A stretch of 57,549 nucleotides of DNA, taken from assembly GCA_016183065.1 (NCBI GenBank), contig JACPFF010000017.1:1-57549 (forward strand), read 5' to 3'. The DNA is from Deltaproteobacteria bacterium. Lineage in GTDB: Bacteria > UBA10199 > GCA-002796325 > JACPFF01. The position numbers and the translations under genes are program-made. This document shows, piece by piece, positions 172 to 45,648 of this stretch. Each line of letters begins with the position of its first letter. Position 1 is the first letter of the stretch. Under the pieces are notes generated by a model, which was not told the DNA's origin, made no database searches, and saw only the letters and a list, made by a program, of their open reading frames with translations.

Positions 172-1179
172 TCACGCAAGGGCCAATCGCAGGAGGCTGG
201 CGATGAGGGCCTCGAAGGTGAGGCCGCCTTTTTCTGCGGACTCGGCGAAGTCCTCGACACTGGAGAGGAAGGGATTGGGATTGGCTTCGAGGAGGAAGAT
301 CTGGCCATCGGCGCGGACACGTACGTCCAGGCGCCCATACCCGCGGATTTGCAGGATGCGATAGGCCCGTTTGCAGACATTGTGGATCTGCCGCTCCAAT
401 CCCGCCGGCAGATCGGTGGCAAAGCGGTACCGGATCTTCCAGCGCTTGCGGTAGTCCTCGTCCCATTTGATTTTGTACGTGGCAAAGCGGGGTTCATCGG
501 GCGGGATCTTGCCGAAATCGAGCTCGCGGAGGGGAAACGCGGTGAGACGCGTGTTGCCAAGGATGCTCACATAGCACTCGCGTCCGTCGATGTATTGTTC
601 GACGAGGGCGTCTTGATTGAGATGGTCGTGAATGAAGAGGACGCGTTCCTTGAGTTCGGCGTCATTTTCGACAAACGAGGATTTGGCAATCCCGACCGAT
701 CCCTCAATGCGGAGCCCCTTGACAAAGAGGGGATATTCCATCTTTGCCGGGCGACGAATGGTTTCCCCCCGATGAAAGACGGTAAACTTGGGGACGCGAA
801 TGCGGTGATAGGCCAGCAACGATTGCGCGACGCCCTTGTGTTTGCACAGTGTTAGACCCACCGTCCCGGTTCCTGTGATGGGGATGCCCAAGAGTTCAAT
901 GAGTGCGGCAATGTTCTTCTCAAAGACCGGATTGTCATCGAATTGTTCCACGAGATTGAAGATGAGATCCGGTTTTTGTGCGGCGATCGCATCCAGCAGC
1001 GGCTGGATGCTCTTGTAGAGACAGATGAGCTGTGCTGTGTGCCCCAGGGTCTGCAACGCGGCCAGGACATCGTGCTCGGTTTTCCAGGCCTCGTCGGTCT
1101 CAAGTTCCTTCCCGAAATCCTGACCCGTCGGATCAGAAGAGATGTCAGAGAGGACGATGATGTTGAGTCGCTGTTTCAT
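172..1179 (-). CDS. ATP-grasp ligase, D-Ala-D-Ala ligase-like
   Basis: The 335-residue protein has the ATP-grasp arrangement of D-alanine--D-alanine ligases. An N-terminal Rossmann-like part includes KPDLIFNLVEQ, a central segment has GIPITGTGTVGLTLCKHK, and a C-terminal ATP/Mg part has GRECYVSIL, GYGRLDVRVRADG and a LLEANPNPFL metal-ligand motif. Ligases of this group join an amino acid or peptide amine to a carboxyl through an acyl phosphate. The substrate is not predictable here, and divergence from true Ddl argues against a simple cell-wall role. It is the second gene of a leftward pair with the metallopeptidase. Before a repeat was inserted, its ATG would have been only 7 nt from the metallopeptidase stop. 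Confidence 0.75.
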   Translation of the reverse strand: MKQRLNIIVLSDISSDPTGQDFGKELETDEAWKTEHDVLAALQTLGHTAQLICLYKSIQPLLDAIAAQKPDLIFNLVEQFDDNPVFEKNIAALIELLGIPITGTGTVGLTLCKHKGVAQSLLAYHRIRVPKFTVFHRGETIRRPAKMEYPLFVKGLRIEGSVGIAKSSFVENDAELKERVLFIHDHLNQDALVEQYIDGRECYVSILGNTRLTAFPLRELDFGKIPPDEPRFATYKIKWDEDYRKRWKIRYRFATDLPAGLERQIHNVCKRAYRILQIRGYGRLDVRVRADGQIFLLEANPNPFLSSVEDFAESAEKGGLTFEALIASLLRLALA

Positions 1180-1186
1180 GGTCGGG

Positions 1187-1223
1187 TCATCGCTTGAACT
1201 TCCCCGTGTGCAAGTAGGTCATC
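1187..1223. repeat. 37-bp direct repeat, copy 1 (target duplication)
   Basis: These 37 bases are identical to 1346-1382, the last codons and stop of the metallopeptidase gene. This copy stands next to the ATP-grasp start codon, where the 3' end of the metallopeptidase gene would originally have been. Together the two copies bracket the hairpin repeat at 1224-1345. Confidence 0.85.
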
Positions 1224-1345
1224 TATTGGCGGGGCTCGCGTCGCCCCCTCCACGGGCAAAGCCCGTGGAGCCTCCCCCTCTCGCTCGCGGAGCTCGCTGA
1301 CCGCCTTCGGCGGTCCGGACACCTGTGGCGACAAGAGCGTGGTCC
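1224..1345. repeat. Hairpin-rich interspersed repeat, copy A
   Basis: This 122-bp copy of the window's GC-rich repeat family opens with TATTGGCGGGGCTCGCGTCG. It contains a perfect 10-bp stem (CTCCACGGGC pairing with GCCCGTGGAG around an AAA loop) and a 7-bp stem GACCGCC/GGCGGTC with a TTC loop. Near the right end it has GTGGCGAC, the complement of the GTCGCCAC end word of other copies. It sits exactly between the two 37-bp direct repeats, so it looks like an insertion that duplicated its target. Confidence 0.8.
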
Positions 1346-1382
1346 TCATCGCTTGAACTTCCCCGTGTGCAAGTAGGTCATC
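1346..1382. repeat. 37-bp direct repeat, copy 2 (within metallopeptidase 3' end)
   Basis: Second, coding copy of the 37-bp duplication. It supplies the final codons and TGA stop of the metallopeptidase, so the inserted repeat did not truncate the protein. Confidence 0.85.
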
Positions 1383-2356
1383 ATCAGTGCGGTCAGATAA
1401 ATCGACACATCCATGATCAGTTCGTGTTCGGGGCGGGCGACTCGGAGATCGAGTGTGCGGCAGCGCTCCATCAGTTGTCGGAGGATTGTGGCAATATGGT
1501 ATTTTCGCGTCTTCGTCCAGCGATTGACTGCGGCAAGGATCGGGCGCCGGTGCGTGCGCAAAAAGATCGCGGCGCTTCCGCGCGCAACACCTTCGGCTGC
1601 CGCCGGAAAGAGTCTGCGGAGATCATTGTCGTAAAAATCGGGAAAATCGGCGGCGTAGGTCTTGCGCTTCCGCTGATAGTGTGTCTTCAATCGTCGCGTG
1701 AGTCGCGATGCCTCATGCGCAAAATGTGTGGCCGTCACACGTGGCGCCGTGCCCGCGATCTCGCGCATCATCTGGTCAAGGGCCATGAGCTTTTCAAGCG
1801 CCTTCCAACCGACATAGCGTGCACGCCAGTCCTGATCGGGGGTCAGCCAGACCGCGAAGGTTTCGGCGAAGTCCTCGTCGGGGTGGCTCTGAGCGTACCA
1901 GTTGTCGAGATGGATGACATAGCTTTTGCTGTAGGGCCGCGGATGATAATTCTCCTCGTACGGTTCTGCGGAAGAACCGAAAATGGCACGAAACCGTCGC
2001 GTCCGGTTCAGGCGGTAGGCATACATAAGGGCGTGTCCCATTTCATGGCGGAGCAGCTTGAGGCATTCCTCCCTGGTGCCGCCTTCAACGTTGAGCATGA
2101 GCTTTTCTTCCAGGCGACTTAAACGGGAATGGGCGAGGTAAAAGGGAATACTGATGGCAGGGACACCTTCCTCGCAAAACCACTCATCTCCGAGATAACA
2201 GGGGGGTCTGGCCACGATTCCCTGCGTGGCAATCTCCTGGTGCAATTGTGTGATGAGTGGTTCGAGGCTTGAGTCGGCGAGCGAGAGGCGCAGATCGCAG
2301 ATGCGCCATTCCAGGAGGGCGTCATCGGCGAGCTCGGTCCACGGGGTGGAACTCAT
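1346..2356 (-). CDS. Putative zinc-binding metallopeptidase
   Basis: This 336-residue protein carries an HEMGH zinc signature at about residues 104-108 (RHEMGHALMYAY). A downstream acidic HPDEDFAETFAVWL segment probably supplies the third ligand and completes a gluzincin-like site. It matches the general type annotated as putative zinc-binding metallopeptidase in deltaproteobacterial genomes. There is no signal peptide, so it is probably cytoplasmic. It is the first gene of a leftward pair with an ATP-grasp ligase. The recurring pairing of a ligase with a peptidase suggests making and trimming of an unusual peptide bond, which is inference. Its 3' end is duplicated around repeat copy A. Confidence 0.75.
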   Translation of the reverse strand: MSSTPWTELADDALLEWRICDLRLSLADSSLEPLITQLHQEIATQGIVARPPCYLGDEWFCEEGVPAISIPFYLAHSRLSRLEEKLMLNVEGGTREECLKLLRHEMGHALMYAYRLNRTRRFRAIFGSSAEPYEENYHPRPYSKSYVIHLDNWYAQSHPDEDFAETFAVWLTPDQDWRARYVGWKALEKLMALDQMMREIAGTAPRVTATHFAHEASRLTRRLKTHYQRKRKTYAADFPDFYDNDLRRLFPAAAEGVARGSAAIFLRTHRRPILAAVNRWTKTRKYHIATILRQLMERCRTLDLRVARPEHELIMDVSIYLTALMMTYLHTGKFKR

Positions 2357-21068: not shown

Positions 21069-21781
21069 CGACCTCCTCCATTGAGCAACTTCTCATGACA
21101 TCGGGAGCACTCTTGAGAGACGGCCATTTTCTCTATGCCTCCGGACGGCATGGCAATGCCTACTTCAACAAGGATGCCCTCTATACCGATCCCGTGCTGA
21201 TGAAACAGCTCGGTGAGGCCATGGCCTTGCCGTTTATCGGGACAGCGATCGAGGCCGTGGCTGGGCCGACGGTGGGTGGGGTCATCCTGGCACAGTGGGT
21301 GGCCTATCATCTGCAAGAGAAGACCGGACGCCGCATTGTGGCCTGCTTTGCCGAGGAGCGCCCCACTATTGGAGGGGCTCACGTACCCTGCGGCTCCGCC
21401 TCCGGGTACTCCCTCGTCCACCCGCTTCGTGGGTGCCCGGACTCGGTCGTCGCCACTGCGGCAGGCACAAAGGAGCGCTTTTTTGGTCGGGGGTATGATC
21501 GCCTGATTGCCAGTCGCCGGGTCTTGGTGGTGGAGGATGTCCTGACCACTGGTGGGTCCGTGCGGCAGGTTGTGGATGCCGTGCGACGTGTCGGTGGCAT
21601 TCCCGTGGGGGTCAGCGCCCTCTGTAATCGTGGAGGTGTGACGATAGAGTCGCTCGCGGTCCCCACATTACACGCCCTATTGTCCCTGATCCTGGAGAGT
21701 TGGCCCGCGCAAGATTGTCCCTTGTGTCGCCGCGGTATTCCGATTAATACCTCGCTCGGAAAAGGTGGGAAATCCGCCTGA
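21065..21781 (+). CDS. pyrE: Orotate phosphoribosyltransferase carrying an in-frame repeat insert
   Basis: PyrE joins orotate and PRPP to make OMP, the substrate for PyrF. The 238-residue chain has normal OPRT landmarks: GHFLYASGRHGNAYFNK, a substrate/dimer segment AGPTVGGVILAQW, and the PRPP motif VLVVEDVLTTGGSV. Between FAEER and KERFFGRGYDR, the region of the mobile active-site loop, lie 30 extra residues encoded by hairpin repeat copy C. The insert is exactly 90 nt between two CCACT words and keeps the frame. Deleting it gives an ordinary loop (FAEERPTAAGTKERFF). The C-terminal CPLCRRG pair of cysteines is also distinctive. The gene is probably functional because it is the only pyrE seen and shows no other damage. 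Confidence 0.92.
   Translation: MTTSSIEQLLMTSGALLRDGHFLYASGRHGNAYFNKDALYTDPVLMKQLGEAMALPFIGTAIEAVAGPTVGGVILAQWVAYHLQEKTGRRIVACFAEERPTIGGAHVPCGSASGYSLVHPLRGCPDSVVATAAGTKERFFGRGYDRLIASRRVLVVEDVLTTGGSVRQVVDAVRRVGGIPVGVSALCNRGGVTIESLAVPTLHALLSLILESWPAQDCPLCRRGIPINTSLGKGGKSA
21363..21457. repeat. Hairpin-rich interspersed repeat, copy C, inside pyrE
   Basis: The copy reads CCACTATTGGAGGGGCTCAC at its left and GGACTCGGTCGTCGCCACT at its right, so CCACT stands at both borders exactly 90 nt apart. Inside are an imperfect stem TACCCTGCGGC/GCCTCCGGGTA and a 7-bp stem CACCCGC/GTGGGTG with a TTC loop that includes one G-T pair. It is read as TIGGAHVPCGS and onward in the PyrE frame, the same frame used by copy E in the lytic transglycosylase. 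Confidence 0.9.
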
Positions 21782-21789
21782 AGAAATAA

Positions 21790-21891
<102 letters not shown>

Positions 21892-21902
21892 TTTATTCCT
21901 TT

Positions 21903-22080
21903 ACTAAGGAGTTTGTACCCCACTATACAGATGACACAGGATGATGAGCCGAGACAAGGAAGATGAGCGAAAAAATTCGAGGCGTAGCCGTCGCTACGTT
22001 GAGGATTTTTTCGTGAAATCTGACGCAGTCGCAGGCCATCAGCCGAAGTCAGATGTATAGTGGGGTATGAACTCCTTAGT
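21903..22080. mobile_element. MITE-like long palindrome abutting dnaX
   Basis: A 178-bp element with near-identical 26-bp terminal inverted repeats (ACTAAGGAGTTTGTACCCCA on the left, its complement on the right with about three mismatches). Nearly the whole length can fold back on itself. The central hairpin has arms AAAAATCCTCAACGTAGC and GCTACGCCTCGAATTTTTT. No protein is encoded. Its right end touches the dnaX ATG, so it supplies the entire dnaX leader. A second element with different ends but the same kind of core is at 38050-38231. Confidence 0.75.
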
Positions 22081-23778
22081 ATGTACCAAGCTCTCGCACG
22101 AAAATATCGCCCCCAAACCTGGGGCGAGGTGATCGGTCAAGACCATGTGACGCAGACGCTGCAGAACGCTGTTGTGCAGCAGCGACTGCATCATGCCTAT
22201 CTCTTTTGCGGCGCGCGCGGGGTCGGAAAGACGACAGTGGCACGGCTCCTGGCCAAGACGGTCAATTGCGTGCAGCGCGGCGCGTCGAGCGAACCGTGCA
22301 ATGCGTGCGAGAGCTGCCGCGAGATCACCAATGGCCATGCCCTCGATGTGCAGGAGATCGACGGGGCCTCCAATACGGGCGTCGACGACGTGCGGGAAAT
22401 CCGCGAACGGATCCAGTATCTCCCCGCGGAGACGCGCTACAAGGTCTATATCATCGATGAAGTGCACATGTTGTCCAAGGCGGCTTTCAATGCTCTCCTC
22501 AAGACACTGGAAGAACCGCCACCCCATGTCCTCTTTATCTTTGCGACGACCGAGCCGCAAAAAATTCCTGCCACGATCCTGTCGCGCTGCCAACGCTACG
22601 ATTTTCGCCGGGTTGCGGCGGAAGAGATCGTCTCGACACTTCGTCATATTGCGACCGCCGAGGGGATGACCGTGGGTGATGATCTCCTCCATCTCCTGGC
22701 TTACGAGGCCGAGGGGGGATTACGCGATGCGGAATCGCTCTTTGATCAGGTCATTGCCGCGTGCGGGACGGCCGTCACGGTCCCCCAGGTACGCAATTTG
22801 CTGGGATTGACTGATCGCATCATGCTGCTCGAATTGGTCCGCGCCATTGTGAAGCGTGACGCAAAGACGGCACTGGGCCATCTGGAGACCGCATTTCAGA
22901 GCGGGGGGAATCTCCCCCAATTGGCCCACGATCTTCTCGAATTTTTTCGCCATCTCTGGGTGCGGGTCTCCTGCGGCGAGCTCCCGCATCGTGCCACTAT
23001 GCCGACCGATGAAGTCGAGGCGGTGGAGACCCTGGCGTGCGGGATGACCGTGGAAGAGGGAGCGCAGTGGTTTGCCATCCTCTTTCGCGGCATCGACAGC
23101 GTGATTCGCGGGCGATTCCCCAAACTGGCCATGGAAGCGGTCCTGCTCCAGATGGTGCAAGTCACGCCGATGACGTCCATTTCGGCGTTAATCGATCGTG
23201 TGGAGGCGATGCTCGCCACGGGCGCTGGGACGCAAACGCCGACCTCAGCTGCCACCATGCCGCAGACACCCACGTCGCGTGCGTCGGCACCGAGTGCAGC
23301 GGCACAGGGGAGAGCCCCCATCAACGCACCGTCTCCTGCGCCTTCGGTGGCGGGGTCCGCGGAGGCATCCGCAGGCGAACCGGGATTTGCCTGGAATGCG
23401 TTTTTCCAGAAACTGAGGAGGTCGCGTCCGCAACTGGCCTCCATCGTTGAGCACGGGCACGTGCAGCGTGCGGATGTGGAGCGGGTGGAACTCCGGTTTC
23501 CGCGCGATTCATTGTATGCGGCCATGTTGCAGGAAGCGGACCGGTTGGCACAATTCGAGGCATTGGTGCACGAACAGTTTGGGAGCACGTGCCGGGTACA
23601 GATTCGTCAGATCGACGGACTGACCTCGGCCGAGCGGCAGGCCACAGTGCGGGCCGAGCGGCAGAAGGACCAGCATCGCCGGCATTCGGCGGCGCTTGAG
23701 CACGCGTTGGTGCGGGAGGCCGGGGAAGTTTTTGGGGCAGAGATTGCCGAGGTCAAGGTCTATGGTGAATCCACTTGA
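22081..23778 (+). CDS. dnaX: DNA polymerase III subunit gamma/tau
   Basis: DnaX is the clamp-loader ATPase of the replicase. The 565-residue protein starts MYQALARKYRPQTWGEVIGQ, the classic N-terminus, fixing the start at 22081. Walker A is GARGVGKTTVARLLAK. A zinc module contains CNACESC and an upstream cysteine. Walker B is YIIDEVHMLSK, and sensor/arginine-finger segments follow (TTEPQKIPATILSRCQRYDF). A Pro/Ala/Thr-rich linker near residues 385-435 leads to a C-terminal tau domain. No slippery A-run for programmed gamma production was seen. recR overlaps its 3' end by 17 nt. Confidence 0.95.
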   Translation: MYQALARKYRPQTWGEVIGQDHVTQTLQNAVVQQRLHHAYLFCGARGVGKTTVARLLAKTVNCVQRGASSEPCNACESCREITNGHALDVQEIDGASNTGVDDVREIRERIQYLPAETRYKVYIIDEVHMLSKAAFNALLKTLEEPPPHVLFIFATTEPQKIPATILSRCQRYDFRRVAAEEIVSTLRHIATAEGMTVGDDLLHLLAYEAEGGLRDAESLFDQVIAACGTAVTVPQVRNLLGLTDRIMLLELVRAIVKRDAKTALGHLETAFQSGGNLPQLAHDLLEFFRHLWVRVSCGELPHRATMPTDEVEAVETLACGMTVEEGAQWFAILFRGIDSVIRGRFPKLAMEAVLLQMVQVTPMTSISALIDRVEAMLATGAGTQTPTSAATMPQTPTSRASAPSAAAQGRAPINAPSPAPSVAGSAEASAGEPGFAWNAFFQKLRRSRPQLASIVEHGHVQRADVERVELRFPRDSLYAAMLQEADRLAQFEALVHEQFGSTCRVQIRQIDGLTSAERQATVRAERQKDQHRRHSAALEHALVREAGEVFGAEIAEVKVYGEST

Positions 23779-38049: not shown

Positions 38050-38231
38050 AGGGTCTGACCGGAAATACCTATTCATTTTGGCATCTCATCTTGGGACCAT
38101 CTTTGCCCGATCTTCACTCGCAAAATCCTCAACATAGCCTGGCTATGCCTCCGGTTTTGCTCCCTCAGATCGGCCACATCTGGCCCCAAGCTGAGCGCCA
38201 AAACAGAACAGGTATTTCCGGTCAGACCCTT
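38050..38231. mobile_element. MITE-like long palindrome
   Basis: A non-coding element of about 182 bp with terminal inverted repeats AGGGTCTGACCGGAAATACC (one side then TATTC, the other TGTTC). The interior folds back along its length. The core hairpin has arms AAAATCCTCAACATAGCC and GGCTATGCCTCCGGTTTT, the same design as the core of the element at 21903-22080. The right end supplies the TAA stop of the phosphodiester glycosidase gene. Confidence 0.75.
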
Positions 38232-44745: not shown

Positions 44746-45648
44746 ATGCGACAACGAGTCTTCACGCGACTATTTTGGATCGGTCTCGGATCCCTTGTCT
44801 CTCTGACCAGTCCCCATGCCACTATTGGAGGGGCTCACGTTGCCCCCTCCAGCGGCAAAGCCGCTGGAGCCTCCCCCTCAGCGCCGCGGTGCGGCTGGGT
44901 CGTGGGGCCCCGGACGTCAATCCGGGGGGTGTCGTGCCCAGGCGAAGCCTCCTCCCAGGGTGCCACGGGCGTGAGCCCGTGGGGCCCCACGATCATCACC
45001 CTGCTCAAACGGACAATTCCCCCGACCGCCGTGACGACCGCCGCCTGGATGGACGATGAATTCCGGGCGATCATCCAGGAGGTGGCACGTCTCTATGCCA
45101 TCGATCCGGCGATCATCGCGGCCATCATCCATGTGGAGTCGAACTTTAACCCGCGGGCCCGCTCGCATCGAGGGGCGATGGGACTGATGCAGCTGATGCC
45201 GGGGACGGCCCGGATGATGGGGGTCTCGGCGCCTTTTGACCCCGTCCAAAATATTCGGGGGGGGACCCGGTATTTCCGGTCGCTGCTCGACCAATTTGAG
45301 GGAGATATCCTGCTGGCGCTGGCCGCCTATAATGCCGGACCTGGGGCGGTCGCCCGCTACGGACGGATTCCCCCATATGGGGAAACGGAGCGGTACGTCC
45401 CCAAGGTCGTCCACTATTACCACCGCTTTGCCAGACTATTACAGGGGCTCGCGTCGCCCCCCCAACGGGCAAAGCCCGTTGGGTCCCCCCCTCTCGCGCG
45501 CAGTGCGCGCTGGGGTACTTCCTCGTCCACCCAGCTTCGCTGGGTCCCCGGACTCGGTCGTCGCCACACCCCCCTCCAGCGGCACAGCCGGGTCAAGGCC
45601 CAGCTTTGCTGGGCCGCGAAGCAAAGTCGAAGACTTTGCGGAGTGTGA
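44746..45648 (+). CDS. Lytic transglycosylase (SLT) with two repeat-encoded segments
   Basis: The enzyme cleaves peptidoglycan strands to 1,6-anhydro ends in the periplasm. The catalytic domain at residues 100-230 is intact, with glutamate 131 in HVESNFNPRARS, GAMGLMQLMPGTARMMG and ALAAYNAGPGAVARYG. The 300-residue chain is unusual at both ends. After the signal peptide (RLFWIGLGSLVSLTSPHA), 56 residues are encoded by hairpin repeat copy E, inserted in frame. From about residue 231 onward the 70-residue tail is encoded by copy F. Removing copy E restores SPHATIITLLKR. AAGGAGG precedes the ATG by 5 nt. The upstream 135 bp is AT-rich without a gene. Confidence 0.88.
   Translation: MRQRVFTRLFWIGLGSLVSLTSPHATIGGAHVAPSSGKAAGASPSAPRCGWVVGPRTSIRGVSCPGEASSQGATGVSPWGPTIITLLKRTIPPTAVTTAAWMDDEFRAIIQEVARLYAIDPAIIAAIIHVESNFNPRARSHRGAMGLMQLMPGTARMMGVSAPFDPVQNIRGGTRYFRSLLDQFEGDILLALAAYNAGPGAVARYGRIPPYGETERYVPKVVHYYHRFARLLQGLASPPQRAKPVGSPPLARSARWGTSSSTQLRWVPGLGRRHTPLQRHSRVKAQLCWAAKQSRRLCGV
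44819..44990. repeat. Hairpin-rich interspersed repeat, copy E, inside the transglycosylase gene
   Basis: The copy starts CCACTATTGGAGGGGCTCAC and ends in GTGGGGCCCCAC. The CCAC words at 44819 and 44987 are 168 nt apart, so the insert is 56 codons. Stems include CTCCAGCGGC/GCCGCTGGAG with an AAA loop, GCCGC/GCGGC, two GTGGGGCCCC palindromes and CACGGGC/GCCCGTG. It is read in the same phase as copy C in pyrE (TIGGAHV). Confidence 0.9.

Follow-up and report, generated by a model that had tools for sequence, protein, structure and literature searches.

A palindromic repeat flanked by a 37-nt gene-end duplication at a peptidase/ATP-grasp junction in a deltaproteobacterial genome

For REP- and RPE-like repeats that lack a transposase, copies flanked by duplicated gene ends allow the insertion step to be studied by comparing genomes within this class: they preserve the junction, and synonymous differences between their two ends show whether a pair of alleles came together. 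One such copy, copy A, lies between a peptidase gene and an ATP-grasp gene in the window analyzed here, a stretch of 57,549 nt (positions 1 to 57,549 of contig JACPFF010000017.1, assembly GCA_016183065.1, Deltaproteobacteria bacterium; Table 1). A first-pass annotation had proposed that the element was inserted inside the peptidase gene and that a long target duplication left this gene with an intact 3′ end.

The two flanking segments, 1187-1223 and 1346-1382, were confirmed as an exact 37-nt direct repeat with a spacing of 159 nt (chance expectation in 57.5 kb, about 9e-14). Read on the minus strand, the repeat is GATGACC...AAGCGATGA and comprises the terminal 11 codons (MTYLHTGKFKR) and stop of the peptidase, as had been claimed. 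The claimed bracketing of copy A was also upheld. It is exact on the left because the family 5′ terminus (CTATTGG...) begins at 1223/1224; on the right, the part recognized in comparison with other copies stops near 1315 and is followed by a private tail at 1316-1345. With the duplication collapsed, the peptidase stop falls 7 nt (CCCGACC) from the ATP-grasp ATG at 1179, again as proposed, and the element-free junction would read ...GCGATGACCCGACCATG. Because a 37-nt copy of the peptidase end stands on each side of the element, both genes are intact: nothing is missing from the end of the peptidase, and the 44 nt native to the region upstream of the ATP-grasp gene are still in place. A genome search that allowed up to 3 mismatches found the tail nowhere else, and its local similarity to other loci was no better than shuffled. 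The same held for its weak similarity to a GCAAGCGCGTGGTCCTC module, which was rejected as a source.

Table 1. Features of the copy A junction, in window coordinates, and gene ends or comparable functional stretches duplicated beside copies of the element in relatives, with the length of the duplication.
Feature	Position or length	Strand	Basis or locus
ATP-grasp / D-Ala-D-Ala-ligase-like gene, directly downstream of peptidase	172..1179	-	PF07478 E 5e-30
D1, displaced copy of the last 37 nt of the peptidase gene including stop; now in ATP-grasp leader	1187..1223	-	exact repeat; abuts left terminus of element
Copy A of palindromic repeat	1224..1315	+	49 similar places in this genome; left-end logo; fold
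Private 30-nt tail, between recognizable element and intact gene end	1316..1345	.	no second copy in genome
D2, functional 3′ end and stop of peptidase gene	1346..1382	-	exact repeat; aligns with C-termini of relatives (YLYTGKFKP...)
Zinc-metallopeptidase-like gene (Peptidase_Mx)	1346..2356	-	PF15887 E 7e-8; homologues 43-49% in relatives
tRNA-Arg	47 nt, reaching tRNA end		relative copy
rplL (L7/L12)	44 nt		relative copy, L202
tRNA-Thr	30 nt, 5′ half		relative copy
STAS gene overlapping rsmH	23 nt		relative copy, L208
mraZ	21 nt		relative copy
5S rRNA	21 nt		relative copy, L223
tRNA-Lys	21 nt		relative copy
Short gene just before glyA	17 nt		relative copy, L182
Divergent intergenic region	17 nt		relative copy
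glpA overlapping glpB	13 nt		relative copy, L209

The junction was compared with those of class relatives that carry neither element nor duplication. In one (G015) the peptidase stop lies 7 nt from the ATP-grasp start, and in another (G002) the two genes overlap as ATGA; the peptidase C-termini of relatives align with the C-terminus kept beside copy A. A contiguous, element-free ancestral junction is well supported, as judged only from homologues of 46-49% identity. The proposed arrangement before insertion is therefore supported; as to the placement of the event, a duplication makes "inside the gene" and "just after the stop" equivalent descriptions. Close relatives were sought by a peptidase scan of genome contigs and none was found. 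A repeat-pattern scan returned only three loci, in the MAGs Deltaproteobacteria NC_groundwater_355 and Syntrophobacterales Chersky.21_67.

The palindromic family of which copy A is a member has at least 130 copies in this draft genome of about 2 Mb. The 12-mer core AGGGGCTCRCGT occurred 132 times in the 1.97-Mb draft and 0 times in a reversed-pattern control. Family matches were present in 26 of 40 relatives, all of one class. The copies are modular and predicted to fold into hairpins. Copy A itself consists of the left terminus CTATTGG, a GGGGC/GCCCC stem, a CCACGGGC-AAA-GCCCGTGG hairpin and a GACCGCC-TTC-GGCGGTC hairpin; this last module is common, among close matches, only to the copy inside rlmN. 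The left terminus of the family is fixed (CgCcACTATT[G/A]..AGGGGCTC in the logo of own-genome copies), and the left end of the element begins GGCTATTATAGGGGCTCGCGTC. The right side is modular with variable ends: GGGGCCCCAC in 53, GTGGGAAGCTAT in 9 and GTCGTCGCCAC in 10 of 105 copies, with the other 33 including copy A. Copy A was the own-genome copy closest to the element type of the relatives.

Many copies of the family lie in frame inside conserved genes, namely carA, rlmN, murF, squalene/phytoene synthase, pyrE and a B12-dependent ribonucleotide reductase. The CarA profile (2-358/361) spans the inserted repeat, and the RlmN, MurF, SQS_PSY and B12-dependent ribonucleotide reductase open reading frames keep family matches on both sides of the insert. 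The repeat thus enters conserved proteins without loss of the family match, in the manner of RPEs, and this habit resembles that of the Rickettsia palindromic elements and of intragenic CGTC/GTAG REPs (PMC3733652). By analogy, the in-frame copies can be taken as an RPE-like protein-invading repeat outside Rickettsia. In-frame copies were located at 21362-21460 and 44822-44995 of the window and at L002, L123, L131, L029, L055 and L056, and add roughly 25-110 residues. A lytic transglycosylase is also among the genes with an in-frame repeat, and the ribonucleotide reductase carries an intein besides.

RPE-4, RPE-6 and the CGTC-tagged REPs are, like this family, short high-copy hairpin repeats found also in frame inside conserved genes, and no dedicated transposase was found adjoining the CGTC elements (PMC3733652). 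The likeness drawn here is one of form and placement, and the present family differs in being a longer, modular, class-wide unit. A long flanking duplication of a gene end is not described for RPE or CGTC repeats in that paper, the word stem "duplicat" being absent from the text searched.

The genome-wide survey for long flanking duplications proposed in the first-pass annotation gave opposite outcomes in the own genome and in relatives. Among 105 non-nested own copies a flanking duplication was found at copy A only, and all other similarity between flanks equalled that of permuted flanks; the result was little changed when overlap with the left terminus was allowed. A second, unbiased search of 122 own copies returned only copy A and one internal module repeat. 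Long target duplication as the general insertion mark of the family was therefore rejected for this genome, where 121 of the 122 copies lack it. A short target duplication of fixed length at most copies, the feature of DDE elements and MITEs, was likewise not seen, the flanks of the 105 copies, copy A excepted, resembling permuted flanks down to a resolution of about 7 nt. Flanking duplications, where present, vary from 13 to 47 nt. A duplication so long and so rare is not what a DDE-type event would be expected to leave.

Ten of 132 copies in relatives (about 1 in 13) carried flanking duplications of 13-47 nt, against a permutation expectation below 0.1 and against 1 of 122 in the own genome (Fisher P 0.011). 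Eight came from a first set of 92 copies (expected 0.05 at ≥13 nt) and two from a check set of 40 further copies, which also yielded one tandem element array. At L348 (G023:C29 36-183) the repeat forms a tandem array, and a short unique spacer has been duplicated together with it. The order of parts, in the direction of the element, was constant. The native flank comes first and is followed by D1, the partial copy of the gene end, which touches the left terminus; after the element and a short spacer comes D2, the gene end repeated, which leads into the intact gene. The partial copy always abutted the fixed left end, as the unbiased search also showed, and the intact gene lay on the right. Copy A fits this architecture. 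At STAS/rsmH, glpA/glpB and glyA, as at copy A, the displaced copy overlaps or just precedes the start of the next gene. The suggested comparison of sister genomes revealed empty sites for two copies other than copy A: of two genomes of one genus, G019 has the element and two ends at both rplL and mraZ, and G007 has a single element-free end at both. Every genome used in these comparisons, the own genome included, is a draft.

Four of the flanked copies in relatives have diverged gene-end copies. At L208, L205 and L202 an identical stretch of 21-44 nt lies next to the element, and beyond it the two ends diverge. The differing codons, different stop codons among them, are synonymous in 7 of 7, 8 of 9 and 4 of 4 cases, respectively (P ≤4e-4 each under random substitution); at L209 the count is 2 of 4 (P 0.02). 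A displaced end drifting neutrally would lack this synonymous bias, and both ends being under protein-level selection argues for two alleles. Plain duplication followed by neutral drift of the displaced copy was therefore rejected for L208, L205 and L202, with the caveat that part of the displaced copy at L208 is constrained because it contains the start of rsmH. Outside the shared core the rplL, mraZ and STAS ends are diverged alleles, which simple target duplication cannot fully explain. Read-through of the element and displaced end in frame was rejected as well: the frames are open, but their phase relative to the gene is not consistent. At 414-567 of L202 (G019:C8 4144-5250), D1 is followed, with no element between, by a third, nested rplL end (GCGGCTGGTGCCAAAGTTGAACTAAAATAG), so that gene-end additions happened at least twice at rplL. 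At copy A the two 37-nt copies do not differ, and each terminates precisely at the stop; they provide neither the signature of core plus divergence nor an independent measure of age. Going by their sequence identity, copy A would be either recent or the simple first step.

The reading that we favor, at a probability of about 0.5, is that copy A is a non-autonomous REP/RPE-like repeat that entered the tight junction with a 37-nt duplication, and that rare duplicating insertions of this kind are kept where they spare genes and are later reshuffled between alleles. Most insertions of the family would leave no duplication, and a few, by long-staggered joining or by template switching on re-entry, would duplicate the target. 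Such insertions may survive where both adjoining genes need the duplicated stretch; at copy A the peptidase would have kept its end and the ATP-grasp gene its leader. An identical core followed by synonymous divergence would then arise when a locus already bearing the element underwent recombination with a different allele and the displaced copy was the site of the crossover. A donor allele for this step was not found. The pattern suggests that small repeats may enter crowded genomes without breaking genes by a rare but real route, and how they can separate overlapping genes without damage. More tentatively, gene-less palindromic repeats across the class might insert directionally and leave behind a second target end, in many cases recoded synonymously. 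An element of only about 100 bp would then restore genes in a phage-like way as it enters the ends of essential or overlapping genes, tRNAs and rRNAs.

Homology-facilitated illegitimate recombination during natural transformation joins DNA at one homologous and one non-homologous junction, and would give overlaps like those that flank the repeat. In a corresponding account of these loci, the main rival and a possible though less likely reading, DNA of a related strain consisting of gene end, short flank and element would recombine on one side with the gene end of the resident and be joined at the left end by microhomology or template switching. The resident gene end would be left displaced behind the element, the duplication being an overlap of donor and resident and not a target-site duplication. 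One step would then account for the synonymous divergence of the ends, for homology that stops at stop codons or tRNA ends, for right ends that vary from copy to copy, for the tail peculiar to copy A, and for gene-specific flanks, as at L223, where a different terminator stands after each of the two 5S ends (read by eye). Such capture would require, each time, a donor in which the element already lay directly behind that gene, and no donor was found. Nor does it by itself explain why the non-homologous junction always lies at one exact terminus of the repeat, the left. One-step capture and a duplicating insertion followed by recombination are both compatible with these data.

Uniqueness among 122 own copies means that the duplication at copy A could be an unrelated one-off, either a local tandem duplication independent of the element or an artefact of assembly. 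The draft does hold at least one artefact of the latter kind, a scaffold gap at about 3229-3294 of L037 with CATTGATCCGCACGAC repeated on both sides of the Ns, which mimics a duplication. We consider this explanation improbable, because the copy A junction coincides with the exact left terminus of the family, no Ns occur at the site, and ten copies in relatives share the architecture, four of them with diverged ends that assembly is unlikely to produce. Prophages and islands integrate at the 3′ ends of tRNA or protein genes and restore the gene end. They resemble the family in leaving direct repeats of the gene end, an intact gene on one side, a displaced end on the other and synonymous recoding beyond the core, and differ from it in that the insert here is roughly 100-170 bp without genes and has many unrelated targets. 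Site-specific integration of this type, with a unit made of an attachment core and a recoded gene end by which the target is made whole again, and with the short elements as stripped-down derivatives, would explain the identical core, the recoded end and the several tRNA targets. It is nevertheless very unlikely: attachment cores are integrase-specific, whereas one element here has at least 9 unrelated targets, the short copies are gene-less with no integrase-bearing version seen, and tRNA-Thr is restored at its 5′ half. A viral origin gained no support, the exact 21-nt core being absent from viral contigs.

GTAG REPs and BIMEs mobilized with RAYT transposases are, like this family, mosaic palindromes with more than 100 copies per genome, and IS200/IS605 elements leave no larger target duplications (PMC2817692). 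RAYT-mobilized repeats are mostly extragenic, but quite a few copies of this family are intragenic. Y1 transposases exist in the class. No element match was found in 29 Y1-bearing loci of relatives (~3 kb each, 93 kb in all), and the Y1 gene of the own genome is accompanied by a single element, at a distance of about 1 kb, with none on the other side. A RAYT/REP system was rejected, as none of these Y1 genes lies between inverted copies of the repeat. At L038 (G000:C8 ~65820-66180) a Y1 transposase gene, matched over its N-terminal half only (139-aa open frame), runs straight into repeat copies.

Two further repeats were noted in the window. An inverted repeat with 54-nt arms (TACTAAGGAGTTTGTACCCCACTATACA...) at 21902-22081 lies directly after the small SRP RNA gene (21793-21892) and looks like a separate MITE-like element. 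At 38050-38230 a long imperfect intergenic palindrome of another type has 90-nt arms, 72% complementary, with a 1-nt spacer, and is bounded by AGGGTCTGACCGGAAATACCT.
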